Positions 12,308 through 37,352 of a DNA stretch of 42,072 nucleotides are shown in pieces. This stretch comes from a virus. Location of the stretch: positions 1 through 42,072 of the IMG/VR virus record IMGVR_UViG_3300005833_000026. One strand, 5' to 3'. The first letter of the stretch is position 1. Each line of letters opens with the position of its first letter. The position numbers were made by a program, and so were the translations under genes. The notes beneath the pieces are model-generated. The model saw only the letters and a list, made by a program, of their open reading frames with translations, was not told the DNA's origin and did not search any database.

Positions 12308-13707
12308 AAGTCCAGGTCCCCTACAACTACACGCCGAGAGCCTACCAGATGCCCGTGTGGGAAGCCTTCCAGGCGGGAATCAAGAGGTTCGCGTGCGTGT
12401 GGCATCGCCGGAGCGGCAAGGACAAGACGTGGCTGAACATCATGGTCCACGCGATGTATCAGCGCAAGGGCACCTACTACTACCTGTTGCCGACCTACAA
12501 CCAGGCCAAGAAGATCATCTGGGATGGCATGGGCAAGGACGGTTTCCGGTTCCGTGATCACTTCCCCATGGAACTCGTCGAACGAATCGACGAGACCGAG
12601 ATGCAAATCCATTTCAAGATGGGCTCGATCTTCCAGTTGATCGGTACGGACAAGATCGATAGGATCGTCGGCCCCAACCCCATCGGGTGCGTCTTCTCCG
12701 AGTACTCGCTTCAGCGCAAGCAGGCGTTCGATCTTCTCGAGCCGATCCTGCTGGAGAACGGCGGCTGGGCGGCCTTCATCTTCACCCCGCGGGGCAAGAA
12801 CCACGCCTGGGAGATCTGGAACTACGCGACCTCCAGGCCACACTGGTTCACGTCCCTCCTCACGGTGGACCAGACCGCCGACGAGCACGGCCTACCTCTG
12901 ATCTCCCCCGAGCAGCTCGCCGAGCTCCGACGCCGTGGGGTAGACGAGGAACTCATCCAGCAGGAGTACTACTGCAGCTTCCGCGGGTCCATGCAGGGGG
13001 CTTTCTACACGGCTCAAATGAAGAAGGCCGAGGACGAGAACCGGATCGGCGTCTATCACTACGATCCTCGATTCCCTGTGGAGACCTGGTGGGATCTTGG
13101 GCAGGACGACGCCATGGCCGTTGGCTTCCTCCAGCAGATCGGCATGGAGGTCCGCTTCATCGACTACATCGAGGAGCACCACAAGGGCTTTCCGTGGTTC
13201 GCGGCCGAGATGAGGGCCCGGGGCTACGCCTACGCCGAGCAGCACGTGGCTCCCCACGACATCGAGGTTCAGGAGTACTCGGAGCTCACCCGTAAGGAGA
13301 CAGCCGCCCAGCACGGGATCCACTTCATCGTGGCGCCCAAGCTGCCGCTGCAGGAAGGTATCCAGGCGGTGCGGGAAAAATTCCACCGGTTCACTTTCCA
13401 TGAACCTCTGACAAACCGCCTCATCGACTGCCTCAAGAACTACCGACGCAAGTGGGACGAGGATCTCCAGGAGTACTCGGTCCAGCCCGTGAAGGATCAG
13501 TACACCCACGGAGCGGACATGGTGCGCAACGGCGTGATGGCCTTCGACGACCGGGGATACTCCCGCTTTGCGCGACGCGTCACCCAGCAGTACGCGGACT
13601 CAGATTTCGATCCGTTCACCTACCAGCAGCACGGCCAGGTAATCGACGTGGGCGAATCCCGTATACTCGAGGTCGAGACGGATTTCGACCCGTTCTCGAG
13701 GAGATAG
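12304..13707 (+). CDS. terL: terminase large subunit
   Basis: ATP-driven DNA-packaging motor with nuclease. The Walker A-like WHRRSGKDKT is at residues 33-42, Walker B IGCVFSEYS at 127-135 with E133 as catalytic acid, and the coupling motif FTPRGKNHAW follows at 160-169. The C-terminal RNase H-like nuclease begins around TWWDLGQDD (261-269). The length of 467 residues is normal. GTG start overlaps the upstream stop (GTGA). It is followed by a small gene and the portal, the usual packaging order. Confidence 0.93.
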   Translation: MKVQVPYNYTPRAYQMPVWEAFQAGIKRFACVWHRRSGKDKTWLNIMVHAMYQRKGTYYYLLPTYNQAKKIIWDGMGKDGFRFRDHFPMELVERIDETEMQIHFKMGSIFQLIGTDKIDRIVGPNPIGCVFSEYSLQRKQAFDLLEPILLENGGWAAFIFTPRGKNHAWEIWNYATSRPHWFTSLLTVDQTADEHGLPLISPEQLAELRRRGVDEELIQQEYYCSFRGSMQGAFYTAQMKKAEDENRIGVYHYDPRFPVETWWDLGQDDAMAVGFLQQIGMEVRFIDYIEEHHKGFPWFAAEMRARGYAYAEQHVAPHDIEVQEYSELTRKETAAQHGIHFIVAPKLPLQEGIQAVREKFHRFTFHEPLTNRLIDCLKNYRRKWDEDLQEYSVQPVKDQYTHGADMVRNGVMAFDDRGYSRFARRVTQQYADSDFDPFTYQQHGQVIDVGESRILEVETDFDPFSRR

Positions 13708-13709
13708 CG

Positions 13710-13919
13710 ATGGGTGGCTACCTGGCCTACAGTTCCGCGACCAGCATCCCGGATGCGAAGAAGCCTCCCGTTGCCGACCCCAACAAGGTGGACAAGGAAG
13801 CCGCCGACATCACCCTGGCCAACAAGAAGAAGAAGGGCTACCCGTCCACGATGGTGGCCCGGATGCTAGGGCCTGGAGCGAATGACACGTTCGGCAACCA
13901 AGCTACGCTGGGGGTGTAA
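13710..13919 (+). CDS. hypothetical 69-aa protein between terminase and portal
   Basis: ATG 13710 follows GAGGAGATAGCG directly after the terminase stop. The product (MGGYLAYSSATSIPDAKKPP...) has a Lys-rich helical middle and a Gly/Asn end. Short proteins of this kind often sit between terL and portal genes of podoviruses; no function is known. The stop TAA is followed at once by the portal GTG. Confidence 0.65.
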   Translation: MGGYLAYSSATSIPDAKKPPVADPNKVDKEAADITLANKKKKGYPSTMVARMLGPGANDTFGNQATLGV

Positions 13920-15659
13920 GTGCCCGTAAATATAGAGGAACTCTGTCGCCAGCACCACAGGATCTGGGAACGCATGCTGCTAATGCGGTCGACCTGGCAG
14001 GAACTGGCCGACTACGAGGTTCCCCGCAAGGGCGACGTTGACCGGTCTAACTTCTGGACGCCCCGCAAGCAGACCGAGAAGATGTTCGACGAGACCGCTC
14101 CCCAGGCCGCCAGCGAGCTGGCTGCGGAGATGCAAGGAAACCTCACCAGCGCGGCTGCGAAGTGGTTTGGCCTGGTCATGAGCGACAAGGCGCTGCGCGA
14201 GGAGTCGATGTGGCAAGAGTGGCTGGAGAACTCGGCCCAGGCCATCTACGACGCCTATCAGAACTCGAATTTCGCCGAGGAGGTCCAGGAAGCCTACCTC
14301 GATCTCGTGGTCTTCGGAATCGCCGCCATTCTCATGGAGGAGAAGGACGATAGCGCGGCCAAGTTCTCGGGCTTCCGCTTCGAGGCCCTGGCTCTGGGTA
14401 GCTACGCCATTGACGAGGATCGAGATGGCATGGTGGATGTACTTCACAGGCGATTCCGACTCAGCGCCCGAGCCCTGGTTGACAAGTGGCCCATGGACGA
14501 CTGGGAGGGCAAGGATGAAGGTGCTCTCATCAGCGCCCGAAGCTCGTTCGCCTCCAAGCTGAGGAACGATCCATTCGAGATGATCGACGTGTGCCACGCG
14601 GTCTATCCTCGTCCCGAAGCGGACGAGGACTACGGCGGCCGGCGCCGGCGCCAGAAGAACAAGAAGTACGCGAGCTGCTACTTCCTCGAGGCCGAGAAGA
14701 TCATGTTGAACGAGGGAGGTTTCGATGACTTCCCCGCTCTGGTGCCGCGCTGGAGCAAGCACCCTGGCGAAATCTACGGCCGCGGCCCGGGCTGGTTGGC
14801 TCTTCCATCGACCAAGAGCCTGAACAAAGCGATCGAACTGGATTTCAAGTCCTGGGCGAAGGACCTCGATCCGCCCATGAGCGTGAAGGACCGCGGCGTC
14901 ATCGGCCGGGTGCGTACCTCGGCGGCGGCCGTCAACATCGTCCGGGTTGACGATGCGATCAAGCCGACCTTCGACCGCCGCACTTCGAGCTATCAGCCGA
15001 CCCAGATTCGGGTCGAGCGACTGGAGCGCAAGATCCAGAAATGCTTCTTCGTGGATCAATTCCAGTTGCCGGGAGGTGGGCCCTCCCCTGGTAGCCAGAA
15101 CACCTACATGACGGCCACCGAAACCGAGAAACGTTACGAGATCATGCAGCAGCTTCTTGGGCCGACCCTCGGCCGGCTCAAGTACGAACTCCACAAGCCC
15201 CTGGTCGAGCGGACTTTCCGGCGCATGGGTGCTCGTGGGGCGATCCCACCCATTCCCGAGGGCCTCAGAGCAGCTTTCCGCAACAGCCGGCAGCGCCCGC
15301 TCTACAGCGTGGTTTACGAAGGCCCGCTCGAGCGCGCGGCCCGCGCCTCGTCACTCCAGGCGATCAACCGGGCGTTGTCGGTCTCGCTGCCGATCATCCA
15401 GGCCAAACCCGAGACGATGGATGTGCTCAACGGCGACAACCTTGTGCGGGAAATCTTCCTGGCCTCTGGGACACCTTACGGAGTCCTTGAGGACAAGAAA
15501 TCCGTCAAGAAGAAACGAGACGAGCGCGCCGCGGCAATGAAGGCCGAGGCCGAACGCACCAGGTTGAACGAGATGGCCGGCGCGGCCGGACAGGCGGCCC
15601 CGATGGTGAAAGCTCTCCAAGGAGCAGGACAGAATGGCCAAGCGCCCCCAGGTCAGTAG
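13920..15659 (+). CDS. portal (head-to-tail connector) protein
   Basis: The 579 residues match the T7 gp8 / podovirus head-tail connector family in layout. The N-terminal helix HHRIWERMLLMRSTWQELAD is followed by YEVPRK and DETAPQAASELAAEMQGNLT. The central region has HPGEIYGRGPGWLALPSTK, and the C-terminal crown is Ala/Lys-rich. The family forms a dodecameric ring at one capsid vertex through which DNA passes. The GTG start abuts the previous stop. Confidence 0.9.
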   Translation: MPVNIEELCRQHHRIWERMLLMRSTWQELADYEVPRKGDVDRSNFWTPRKQTEKMFDETAPQAASELAAEMQGNLTSAAAKWFGLVMSDKALREESMWQEWLENSAQAIYDAYQNSNFAEEVQEAYLDLVVFGIAAILMEEKDDSAAKFSGFRFEALALGSYAIDEDRDGMVDVLHRRFRLSARALVDKWPMDDWEGKDEGALISARSSFASKLRNDPFEMIDVCHAVYPRPEADEDYGGRRRRQKNKKYASCYFLEAEKIMLNEGGFDDFPALVPRWSKHPGEIYGRGPGWLALPSTKSLNKAIELDFKSWAKDLDPPMSVKDRGVIGRVRTSAAAVNIVRVDDAIKPTFDRRTSSYQPTQIRVERLERKIQKCFFVDQFQLPGGGPSPGSQNTYMTATETEKRYEIMQQLLGPTLGRLKYELHKPLVERTFRRMGARGAIPPIPEGLRAAFRNSRQRPLYSVVYEGPLERAARASSLQAINRALSVSLPIIQAKPETMDVLNGDNLVREIFLASGTPYGVLEDKKSVKKKRDERAAAMKAEAERTRLNEMAGAAGQAAPMVKALQGAGQNGQAPPGQ

Positions 15660-15858
15660 GGACGAGGCTCGCGTAATCGAGGCCTACCGGAATTGCTTCA
15701 CCTCTCCGCTGGGGGCGATCGTACTTCAGGACCTGAAGGACTCGTTCTACCGGCAGCCCTACGGAAAAGACAGTCATGACACGGCTTTCCGCTGCGGCTC
15801 CTTCGAGGTGGTCCAGCGGATCCTCGACTTCCTGAAGGAAAGACAAGATGGCAACTGA
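15634..15858 (+). CDS. Bbp19-like phage protein
   Basis: The 74-residue product has VIEAYRNCFTSPLGAIVLQD, a DTAFRCGSFEVVQRIL segment and an acidic/basic tail. This is the pattern I know from the Bbp19 domain of Bordetella phage BPP-1 and relatives, where the gene also sits between portal and scaffold. Function unknown; a virion-assembly role is likely. It overlaps the portal 3' end by 26 bases and the scaffold start by 11. Confidence 0.8.
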   Translation: MAKRPQVSRDEARVIEAYRNCFTSPLGAIVLQDLKDSFYRQPYGKDSHDTAFRCGSFEVVQRILDFLKERQDGN

Positions 15859-16795
15859 AGCACCAGCCGCACCCACGGCAGCACCCAAACCAACCGGACC
15901 CACCAGCATGATGGCCATGGGGGACCTGGGCGATGGCGGAGACTCCGGGAGTAATCCCGACTCGCCGGCTACTCCAACGCCTCGTGCAACGCCTTCTGAC
16001 GCGCCTGCTGATCAGAGCGGCGACGCGCCTGCCCCTACGCCGAGCCTCGCGCCGGACGACTGGCGCACGGGCCTCGGTCCGGAGGAAGTGAAGCGGCTGC
16101 AGAAGTTCAAGAGCCCGCTGGACGTGGCCCGGAGCTACCTCGCGCTGGAGGGCAAGCTCGGTACCGCGGTCCAGATCCCGGGCCCCGACGCCAAGCCCGA
16201 GGATATCAAGGCATTCCACGTGAAACTCGGCGTCCCTGAGCGGGCCGAGGACTACAAACTTGACACCCCGCCCGAGGAGGCGGGCTGGTCCAAGACGTTG
16301 GAGGGTAAGGCCCGCCAGGCCTTCCATGAGGCCTATCTCACCCCCGAACAGGCCCAGAAGATGATCGACATTCACGTCAAGGTGGTCGAGGAGGAAGGCA
16401 TCGCCCTCGTCGAGGAGGGCAAGAGAAGCCTCCAGGCCCTCAGAAGCGAGTGGGGCCCGGACTTCAAGACGAAGTGGGACCTCGGCCAGCAGGCCATCGC
16501 CGATTTCTTCGGTAAGGAGGCGTTGCAGCTCCTGGCCCGGTCTCCCCTGGGAAACTCGGTCTCGTTCTTCAAATCGATGGCGGCACTAGGCGCCGAACTC
16601 AATGATGGCAGGATGGAACGTGGTGACGGACCCGTGTCCTACAAGGATCTGAAGACGGAACTCAACTCGATTCGCGGCGACCGGAAGGGCCCGTACTGGG
16701 ATGCGCGACACCCGCTGAACAAGTCATACGTGGACCGAGCGTTCGAGATCGAGCAGATCCTGACCGCGCAGGACGAAAGGAACGAGCGACCGTAA
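15848..16795 (+). CDS. capsid scaffolding protein
   Basis: The first ~70 residues are low-complexity Ala/Pro/Thr. The rest is helical and charged, including EEVKRLQKFKSPLDVARSYL and YLTPEQAQKMIDIHVKVVEE, with no enzymatic motif. These properties, the length (315 aa) and the position between portal/Bbp19 and major capsid identify a scaffold. It overlaps the upstream gene. The major-capsid promoter begins only 5 bases after its stop. Confidence 0.8.
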   Translation: MATEAPAAPTAAPKPTGPTSMMAMGDLGDGGDSGSNPDSPATPTPRATPSDAPADQSGDAPAPTPSLAPDDWRTGLGPEEVKRLQKFKSPLDVARSYLALEGKLGTAVQIPGPDAKPEDIKAFHVKLGVPERAEDYKLDTPPEEAGWSKTLEGKARQAFHEAYLTPEQAQKMIDIHVKVVEEEGIALVEEGKRSLQALRSEWGPDFKTKWDLGQQAIADFFGKEALQLLARSPLGNSVSFFKSMAALGAELNDGRMERGDGPVSYKDLKTELNSIRGDRKGPYWDARHPLNKSYVDRAFEIEQILTAQDERNERP

Positions 16796-16799
16796 GTAC

Positions 16800-16827
16800 T
16801 TGACATTATAGAAGTTTTGTAGATACT
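16800..16827 (+). promoter_or_regulatory. sigma70-type promoter for the major capsid gene
   Basis: TTGACA (16800-16805), 16-base A/T-rich spacer, GATACT (16822-16827). It lies immediately after the scaffold stop and is followed by a ~150-base untranslated leader. A separate strong promoter for the capsid gene matches its high copy need. Confidence 0.7.
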
Positions 16828-16835
16828 CTGAAGCC

Positions 16836-16976
16836 GTGGACAAACCCGAGAGGGTCCCACAAAGCCTGCTGGGGTATCCAGCCGCCAGAGATCCCGCGTG
16901 AGGGATCGAGGTAGGGCCCGGTTGTCGGACAACCCACCGCCATGACTGAAAACGGTCATAGCCGAGTGAGGTACTC
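16836..16976 (+). ncRNA. structured leader RNA upstream of major capsid gene
   Basis: Six consecutive stem-loops fill the leader. First, GTGG/CCAC enclosing ACCC-GAGA-GGGT with a GNRA-type loop (16836-16860). Then GCTGG/CCAGC (16868-16882), GATCCC/GGGATC (16890-16907) and GGTTG/CAACC (16920-16934). The fifth is ATGACTG/CGGTCAT with an AAAA loop (16942-16959). The last, GAGT/ACTC (16964-16976), exposes the GAGG Shine-Dalgarno in its loop. It may be a translational regulator, an mRNA stabiliser or a packaging/assembly RNA. No known family is assigned. Confidence 0.6.
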
Positions 16977-16978
16977 CA

Positions 16979-17845
16979 ATGTCCGACACAGTTACCCAAG
17001 CAAGGGTGCGGGCCTACCGCGCCAACATCATCATGCTTGCCCAGCAGAAGGGCTCGCGGCTGCAAGACAAGGTCACGGTCGAGAACCAGACCAGCGCCGA
17101 GCAGCTTTTCTTCGAGCGCATCGCCAAGACTGCCGCGGTCAAGAAGACCGTACGCCACGGCGACACCAGCCTCGTGAACACCCAGCACTCGCGTCGGCGC
17201 GTCACGATGGTCGATTACGAGTGGGCCGATCTGATCGACCGCCAGGACCAGATCCGCATGCTGATCGAGCCGACCTCAAAGTACGCCATCCAGGCGGTCT
17301 GGGCAATCGGACGATCCACCGACGACGAGATCATCGCCGCGATGAACGGAACGGCTTACACGGGTGTTGACGGAACCAGCACATCTGCCTTTCCGGCCGC
17401 TCAGAAGGTGGCTGTGGCCGGCAGTGGCCTGACTCTAGCCAAGCTCCTGGCCGCTCGAGAGATCCTCGGGACCAACGACGTGGATCCCGACGAGATGAGT
17501 TACATCGTCTACCGGCCGAAAGACCGGACGACGCTTCTGAACACCACCGAGGTGAAGAACGCCGACTACAACACGGTGAAAGCGCTGGTCAACGGGACCA
17601 TCGATTCCTTTCTCGGCTTCAAGTTCGTCCTCTCCAACCGGCTCATCACCTCGACCGATGCGAGTTCCATCGCCGTCATGGCCTGGAACCCCGAAGCGAT
17701 CGGCCTCATGATGGGGATCGAGCTCGATTCTCACATCGACGTTATGCCAGGTAAGTCCCACGCCACTCAGGTGGCCTGCTACGGATCATTCGGCGCCACA
17801 CGGATCCAGGACGAGTCAGTCGTCGAAATCTCCGTGACCGCGTAA
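16979..17845 (+). CDS. major capsid protein
   Basis: The 288-residue protein has an N-terminal arm, an RRRVTMVDYEWADLIDRQDQ core segment, AIGRSTDDEIIAAMNGTAYTG, a conserved-looking YIVYRPKDRTTLL and an IELDSHIDVMPGK C-terminal part. This is the pattern of the podoviral 'phage capsid protein' family that follows scaffold and Bbp19-like genes; the fold is presumably HK97-type. It has its own promoter and a structured leader. A decoration-type gene follows. Confidence 0.85.
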   Translation: MSDTVTQARVRAYRANIIMLAQQKGSRLQDKVTVENQTSAEQLFFERIAKTAAVKKTVRHGDTSLVNTQHSRRRVTMVDYEWADLIDRQDQIRMLIEPTSKYAIQAVWAIGRSTDDEIIAAMNGTAYTGVDGTSTSAFPAAQKVAVAGSGLTLAKLLAAREILGTNDVDPDEMSYIVYRPKDRTTLLNTTEVKNADYNTVKALVNGTIDSFLGFKFVLSNRLITSTDASSIAVMAWNPEAIGLMMGIELDSHIDVMPGKSHATQVACYGSFGATRIQDESVVEISVTA

Positions 17846-36361: not shown

Positions 36362-36420
36362 GCGGGAAAGTCGAACGGCGCCTGAAAGACTACCTGTTTT
36401 ATGAGGAGCCGGGGGAATGA
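36346..36420 (+). CDS. 24-aa peptide
   Basis: ATG 36346 overlaps the previous stop and the stop overlaps the methyltransferase ATG. The peptide is MMAQGGGKVERRLKDYLFYE plus EPGE. It may be translated chiefly for coupling. Its first 16 bases are part of a 21-bp repeat that recurs at 37391-37411. Confidence 0.4.
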   Translation: MMAQGGGKVERRLKDYLFYEEPGE

Positions 36421-37352
36421 GTGGAGGCTGGGTTTTTTCCGGTGACGCTTTGGAGTGGCTTCGCAGCATCAAGACGGGGTGTTGCGATTGCTGTGTGACA
36501 TCGCCGCCGTATTGGGGACTGAGGGATTACAGAGTAGAGGGTCAGATAGGGCTCGAGGCTACGCCAGAGGAATACGTGGCGAAGCTCGTAAAGGTTTTCG
36601 CGGAGGTTCGCCGTGTACTCCGGGATGACGGGACGTTGTGGATGAATCTCGGGGACACCTACAACGCTTACAATGGTGGCGCTGGGCCCGGCTCGAAGCT
36701 GAGCGATACCCAGACGCGGGAACGGCCCGCCCTACCGACCGGCTACGGCCTTCGGACGCCGAGCCTCAAGCCCAAGGATCTAGTCGGCATCCCATGGCGT
36801 GTGGCCTTCGCGCTCCAGGCTGACGGTTGGTACCTCCGCTCTGACATCATCTGGAGCAAACCGAATCCGATGCCAGAGAGCGTGACGGACAGGCCGACGA
36901 AGGCGCATGAGTACCTGTTCTTGCTTGCCAAGAGCGAGCGGTACTACTACGACGCAGGGGCTGTCAGAGAGCCCTCGGTCGATTCTCCTGGTGTGTCGCG
37001 GGGTGGCTCGCTGAGCAGATTCGGGTTTACCGAAAAGTTGATCTCGGCCAACGGCCACAGGGGGGGAGCCATAGTCAAGAGCAATGGGTGGCGCAACCGC
37101 CGCTCGGTTTGGACCATCGCTACAGAGCCATTTCCAGACGCCCACTTCGCCACGTTCCCGCGCGCTCTCGTGGCGCCTTGCATTCTGGCTGGATCGCCCA
37201 AAGGGGGACGTGTGCTTGACCCATTCGCTGGCTCCGGCACCGTGGCCCTGGTGTCGAAGAATCTAGACCGCAGATACTTGTCGATCGAGATCAACCCAGC
37301 CTATGTGGAAATTCATCAGAAGCGCTTGAGGCAAGAGGTGCTAGCTCTATGA
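36417..37352 (+). CDS. DNA methyltransferase (N4-cytosine or N6-adenine, SPPY type)
   Basis: The 311 residues have catalytic motif IV TSPPYWGLRDY (28-38) before the AdoMet motif I LDPFAGSGT (267-275), the beta-class order. Other conserved parts are GTLWMNLGDTY, DLVGIPWRVAFALQADGWYL and RSDIIWSKPNPMPES. SPPY favours N4-cytosine, although adenine enzymes of this class exist. No restriction partner is present, so it likely protects phage DNA. ATG overlaps the upstream stop. The C-terminus SIEINPAYVEIHQKRLRQEV resembles the remnant found 50 bases downstream. Confidence 0.9.
   Translation: MSGGWVFSGDALEWLRSIKTGCCDCCVTSPPYWGLRDYRVEGQIGLEATPEEYVAKLVKVFAEVRRVLRDDGTLWMNLGDTYNAYNGGAGPGSKLSDTQTRERPALPTGYGLRTPSLKPKDLVGIPWRVAFALQADGWYLRSDIIWSKPNPMPESVTDRPTKAHEYLFLLAKSERYYYDAGAVREPSVDSPGVSRGGSLSRFGFTEKLISANGHRGGAIVKSNGWRNRRSVWTIATEPFPDAHFATFPRALVAPCILAGSPKGGRVLDPFAGSGTVALVSKNLDRRYLSIEINPAYVEIHQKRLRQEVLAL

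Follow-up and report, generated by a model that had tools for sequence, protein, structure and literature searches.

What does a virus with closely packed genes keep in the long gap ahead of its major capsid protein (MCP) gene? The question is raised by the window, the whole stretch of 42,072 nucleotides analysed here, which is a 42-kb virus record (IMGVR_UViG_3300005833_000026, positions 1 to 42,072) of an HTVC010P-like podovirus. Phages of the HTVC010P type are considered highly abundant in the sea, and the nearest annotated relatives of the window are Pelagibacter phages of this type, with an MCP identity of 46–49%. Neighbouring genes in the window mostly abut or overlap, whereas the MCP leader extends over 183 nt, from the stop of the scaffold-like ORF (16795) to the MCP ATG (16979). 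The original prediction had pointed to an anomalous spacer of 150 nt, and the anomaly holds at this greater length. One other long gap is present in the structural block (13707–13920, 212 nt, after a terminase-like ORF) and is overlapped by an ORF at 13452–13919. The other arm of the genome contains an N6/N4 DNA methyltransferase (36417–37352, PF01555). The expected capsid promoter is present, and the setting of the leader is as follows:

15848–16795, + strand: scaffold/protease-like gene, upstream of the MCP gene (phrog_3742, phrog_458)
16800–16827, + strand: sigma70-type promoter TTGACA-16-GATACT (10/12 consensus matches)
16979–17845, + strand: MCP gene (PF19821, E 1e-76; phrog_3437)

Stems of the capsid leader

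From its letters, the leader had been drawn as a row of six simple stems, and all six can be drawn: 16836–16860 (GAGA cap), 16868–16882, 16890–16907, 16920–16934, 16942–16959 and 16964–16976 (GAGG in the loop). The folding energy is moderately low (z=-3.0 for 16800–17000 and z=-2.0 for the leader alone). Energy by itself would not settle whether a structure has been selected; comparison of related sequences did. For this, MCP relatives were gathered from viral contigs, bacterial genome contigs and phage records, and their leaders were then extracted. The elements of the window leader, with their state in two of these leaders, L001 and L002, are listed below; the labels P1 to P5 are used throughout.

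16836–16860, + strand: P1, module copy 1 (orientation O2), GUGG-[ACA]A-ACCC-GAGA-GGGU-C-CCAC; the O2 arms covary across leaders
16868–16882, + strand: P2, hairpin GCUGG-GGUAU-CCAGC, retained in L001 and L002
16890–16907, + strand: P3, hairpin GAUCCC-GCGUGA-GGGAUC with a CGUNA loop; L002 keeps the pairing via double changes
16910–16938 (core 16914–16935), + strand: P4, module copy 2 (orientation O1), GGU-a-GGG-C-CC-GGUUGUC-GG-[ACA]A-CCC-ACC, identified by module counts and covariation
16920–16934, + strand: local hairpin GGUUGU-CGG-ACAACC, the alternative to P4 in the first drawing, lost in L002
16939–16962, + strand: P5, hairpin with core AUGACUG-AAAA-CGGUCAU, retained in L001 and L002
16964–16976, + strand: weak 4-bp stem with the Shine-Dalgarno in its loop, GAGU-GAGGU-ACUC, lost in L002

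The row of stems survives in part. P1, P2, P3 and P5 are kept in L001 and L002, but the fourth stem and the Shine-Dalgarno stem are lost in L002. Two details given weight earlier also fall away: the GNRA cap (GAGA) is not conserved, being GUAA in L001 and UCAG in L002, and the final stem said to show the Shine-Dalgarno has no GAGT/ACTC pairing in L002. Concerning the fourth stem, GGTTGT/ACAACC is not kept in L002, whereas the alternative GGG-C-CC...GG-ACAA-CCC at 16914–16935 is, in the form GGA-U-CC..GG-GCAA-UCC; judged by these relatives, the P4 module is the more likely structure. Of 62 nonredundant leaders, 21 have a hairpin with a CGUNA loop upstream of P4; no other of the 64 triplets tested is as frequent (next 11, median 4). 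On the comparative evidence, what the picture of a row of stems misses is the conserved feature itself, a duplicated bulge/wobble module.

A bulged module and its covariation

The module, 5'-GG-RYA-R-N / N'-Y-CC, recurs in the leaders of about 120 relatives, often in two copies. It consists of a 3-nt bulge RYA adjoining an R4·Y wobble pair. Orientation O1 has the order A-Y-CC-loop-GG-RYAR-A', and in O2 the same module has its loop on the other side. The window fits this definition at 16836–16860 and 16914–16935, with covarying flanking helices at both places. The module together with a flanking helix is present in 66 of 121 distinct leaders, compared with 1.4 (max 4) in dinucleotide shuffles, and two copies are present in 34 of the 121, compared with 0 in the shuffles; the module was first spotted in these same leaders, and the tests that follow weigh more than these counts. 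As a sequence-only motif, YCC-N3-9-GGRYAR occurs at 5.76/kb in the leaders and 0.26/kb elsewhere in the same loci. Arms pairing over at least 4 bp flank this motif in 44 of 100 cases, whereas exchanging the arms among leaders leaves 6.3 (max 13 of 2000); for the O2 orientation (copy 1) the arm-swap test gives 11 against 1.2 (max 5).

Pairing was also counted formally in 23 loop-4 hairpins, which were chosen by sequence motif, with no pairing requirement, from loci found through their protein. They derive from 26 raw matches (25 distinct); the near-duplicate L071 was omitted, as was the match of L002 at -204, since this position falls within the gene before, upstream of the leader proper. Paired cells make up 86.3% of the total vs 58.4% after shuffling, double-change cells number 49 vs 18.5, and the covariation score is 0.648 vs 0.159. 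Double changes are seen in all five outer pairs, and sliding the partner by one column lowers the score to 0.17 or less. Homologous spacers thus conserve both the stems and the compensatory changes whose absence would have spoken against the structure. Taken together, these comparisons strongly support a selected RNA structure, and they indicate that the leader RNA is kept for its shape rather than its letters in relatives from very different bacteria.

The bulge region covaries too. Among 146 leaders, R4·Y is C·A in 70, U·G in 63 and U-A in 5, and standard pairs then follow. Because the wobble pairs C·A and U·G are isosteric, a 3-nt bulge RYA beside an R4·Y wobble describes this region better than a 4x1 loop does. 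Position 1 of the bulge tracks the same C·A/U·G switch, and position 3 is a near-invariant A. Based on 52 nonredundant two-copy leaders, the pair of Y with R4 is C-A in 27 (P1) and 24 (P4), U-G in 23 and 25, and U-A in 2 and 3, respectively. The two copies of a leader usually match each other: 47 of the 52 leaders have the same Y in both (26 on average and at most 39 after shuffling), and 31 have the same complete RYAR (shuffled 15.9, max 28). The clade of the window follows this pattern, with ACAA/C in both copies of the window and GCAA/U in both copies of L002. An MCP tree of 146 proteins shows at least 10 changes of Y. Across independent supported branches, R4 follows Y in about 3, opposes it in 0 and is unchanged in about 3 (sign test p ~0.25), and R1 follows Y in about 4.6 and never opposes it. 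The direction in which R4 and R1 move with Y on the tree is consistent, with too few independent events for significance.

The leader of L143 has three module-like O1 copies, not two.

Distribution of the module and position of its copies

Paired copies of the module are found only in MCP leaders when both strands of four complete genomes are scanned. The other matches in the window, from a whole-genome scan, are isolated, mostly short-stemmed and outside the leader. A further search of 2.9 million viral contigs used DNA patterns of the module, which contain no protein information. An MCP gene follows in 55 of 60 matches to GGTTTCCC..GGATAAAAACC, in 75 of 120 to GAGTCC..GGGTAGCTC and in 17 of 30 to GACGGGTAGC..GTCCGTC; the patterns were built from known leaders, and part of this yield is expected. 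Many of the p1 and p3 pattern matches that do not precede an MCP gene are probably due to chance, the patterns being short with variable gaps. The patterns also found a distant group of MCPs of ~350 aa, 24–32% identical to those of known phages, which shares the P1-P2-P3-P4 layout.

Cultured carriers of the module are Alteromonas phage ZP6, Vibrio phage K300 and Pelagibacter phage Baldr. No recognisable module was seen by inspection in Yersinia YeP5, Vibrio 1.182.O, EcoM_APEC and Pelagibacter Hodr. Low-GC pelagiphages contain only copy 2, as a variant; in the HTVC010P-type isolates this variant copy 2 has AGAA, AAAA or AUAA (read by eye), and there is no obvious copy 1. ZP6 (L160) and K300 (L383) have an annotated aminoadenine (PurZ-type) synthetase and a dATP hydrolase adjoining their replication genes. 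The proteins common to the module-bearing genomes (the window, ZP6, Baldr, MW202510 and K300) are the portal, the scaffold, the MCP and tail tubular A and B. Gene-content profiling of these five genomes makes no dedicated partner gene stand out, because the shared proteins all belong to morphogenesis and most are also present in phages that lack the module. A partner encoded by the phage would be one of these shared morphogenesis proteins or would have diverged beyond detection, and a host factor is just as possible.

Concerning the position of the copies, P1 lies close to the promoter and P4 at a regular distance from the gene. A promoter scoring at least 9/12 is present within 70 nt upstream of P1 in 33 of the 52 two-copy leaders, where the mean score is 8.6 vs 7.6 shuffled. 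Where the promoter is good, P1 mostly starts 5–15 nt past the -10 (8 nt in the window), so it should close the 5' end of the mRNA, the transcript starts being predicted. From the end of P4 to the AUG the distance is clustered, with a median of ~42 nt (IQR 36–51).

In a group of uncultured relatives, 19 of 21 distinct L208-type leaders (L208, L246, L173, L276 and 15 more) have a terminator-like hairpin that straddles the capsid promoter. It has 8–10 bp and a U-tract; the 5' arm overlaps the -10, and P1 reuses the 3' arm together with the U-tract. RNA reading through from upstream could terminate at this hairpin and RNA born at the promoter could not, which would make it a possible built-in insulator.

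Possible functions and known counterparts

Sequence comparison thus demonstrates a conserved RNA specific to the capsid message, with a module that is usually duplicated. Its most likely function, judged from these patterns, is post-transcriptional control of capsid synthesis, i.e. of the amount of MCP. We give about an even chance to the fuller explanation that the leader acts in cis as a structured 5'-UTR RNA, belongs to a family absent from Rfam 15 and specific to the HTVC010P-like capsid mRNA, and sets the stability and translation of that mRNA through its two modules. The P1 module would stand at the 5' end of the transcript and the P4 module ~42 nt before the AUG, with the CGUNA-loop hairpin between them in many leaders. 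A single partner, perhaps the capsid or scaffold protein or else a host factor, would recognise both modules at once, or the modules would dock with each other, and the binding or docking would set MCP mRNA stability and translation. That the capsid or scaffold protein reads the RNA directly at the two copies, as an autogenous control like that of RNA phages but independently evolved, is suggested by analogy, and we consider it unlikely. A conserved regulatory RNA on the capsid message of HTVC010P-type phages would offer a handle on the timing and dose of virion production. The covariation in the internal loop (C·A with U·G, tied also to the first bulge base and from one copy to the other) defines a recognition module open to testing in ZP6, K300 and Baldr.

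The clade of the window has a further possibility, in that one strand of the P4 module has an alternative partner in the start codon and the codons after it:

16923–16931, + strand: anti-start strand UGUCGGACA, within P4, complementary to the first MCP codons
16980–16988, + strand: start-region strand UGUCCGACA, starting with the second AUG base and spanning most of that codon, partner of the P4 strand

The UGUCGGACA:UGUCCGACA pairing, a duplex of ~-16 kcal/mol, is present in the free MFE of the window, L001 and L002, and L002 retains all nine start-pairing positions through G-U pairs. The window folds at -72.8 kcal/mol when free (start-paired) and at -61.5 kcal/mol with both modules forced, and forcing the modules turns the U of the AUG from paired to open. 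Formation or stabilisation of P4 would leave the start codon free and its loss would close it, a plausible ON/OFF switch. The nearest-neighbour model favours the closed fold in the window by ~11 kcal/mol, so the module would need a stabilisation that the model does not see. The translational switch first suggested for this leader is thus the best fit within the clade, because P4 competes there with a helix that sequesters the start codon, but the alternative is limited to the window, L001 and L002 and so cannot be the general mechanism. Start-codon sequestration was rejected in that general role: outside these three leaders the mean duplex energy is -6.1 vs -5.6 for swapped sequences (range -6.2 to -5.2). 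As complementarity there is at background, the P4:start pairing may be a clade-specific addition.

The main rival to post-transcriptional control is a nascent-RNA antiterminator of the put type, in which P1 and P4 would bind RNA polymerase leaving the late promoter and allow read-through of the long structural operon. HK022 put acts in cis as two adjacent bulged stem-loops just past a phage promoter, is carried on early transcripts and binds the zinc-binding domain of the RNA polymerase beta' subunit (PMC9378689). Two bulged stem-loops right after a promoter at the head of a structural operon reproduce the putL layout (PMC9378689); in the window P1 starts 8 nt past the -10 and the P4 core 53 nt past the end of P1, for a predicted transcript start. 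The terminator-like hairpin that overlaps the promoter and P1 in the uncultured L208-type relatives would also suit such a role. The layout fits, the sequence does not: by inspection, HK022 putL (L159 28370–28180, - strand) lacks the YCC..GG-RYAR module and is rejected as a direct match. Moreover, put is found on early transcripts (PMC9378689), whereas this element marks the capsid gene only, its paired copies occurring at no other promoter of the four complete genomes. Terminators downstream of the MCP gene in the window show no excess over shuffles, and antitermination would not need the clustered distance from P4 to the AUG. On balance we think this role improbable.

Doubtful, too, is a leader that acts as a 5'-end stabiliser, with P1 shutting the mRNA against 5'-end-dependent decay and P3–P5 shielding the remainder. 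Many copies of the capsid protein are needed, and the position of P1 in most good-promoter leaders would leave almost no single-stranded 5' end. However, any hairpin would serve this purpose, which leaves the conservation of the bulge and wobble and their matching in both copies unexplained, and the HTVC010P-type isolates retain copy 2 with no obvious copy 1. A role in packaging or assembly had been proposed earlier. Such a pRNA-like RNA, or one incorporated into the virion, would suit a position between scaffold and capsid genes, but it finds no support in an element that is always the sense 5'-UTR of the MCP gene, at a clustered distance to the AUG and unmatched by the packaging RNAs of Rfam; we regard it as very improbable. 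Incidental, functionless GC-rich inverted repeats would agree with a folding energy that is only moderately unusual (z -2 to -3) and are scarcely credible given the compensatory changes, the module enrichment and the MCP leaders retrieved by module patterns.

With post-transcriptional control of MCP synthesis as the preferred reading, known RNA families offer partial likenesses. At gathering thresholds neither the window nor any of 38 related loci matches an Rfam 15 family, and relaxing the threshold to E<=1 for four loci also gives nothing; the best sub-threshold match in the leader of the window, WT1-AS_2, reaches 15 bits where 45 are needed. No published description of the element was found in the open literature, subscription papers lying outside the search. 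The coat operators of RNA phages (MS2/Qbeta) are single hairpins before the replicase start of ssRNA phages. Our element is like them in placing a small hairpin with a bulge before a gene of a phage mRNA, with capsid-linked control by analogy, and differs in having two modules before the capsid gene of a dsDNA phage. Kink-turns, with a 3-nt bulge followed by tandem sheared G·A pairs, and other 3-nt-bulge motifs likewise place such a bulge between two helices; identity with the kink-turn was rejected, as no tandem G·A adjoins the bulge; a single R4·Y wobble stands there, and bulge position 3 is a near-invariant A. Autoregulatory leaders of ribosomal proteins are structured 5'-UTRs with covarying helices and conserved internal loops before the gene of an abundant protein. 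All of these traits are shared by the phage leader, although it has no Rfam match to any such leader. Its most fitting description is a new family within a broad kind of RNA already known, the cis-acting leader.
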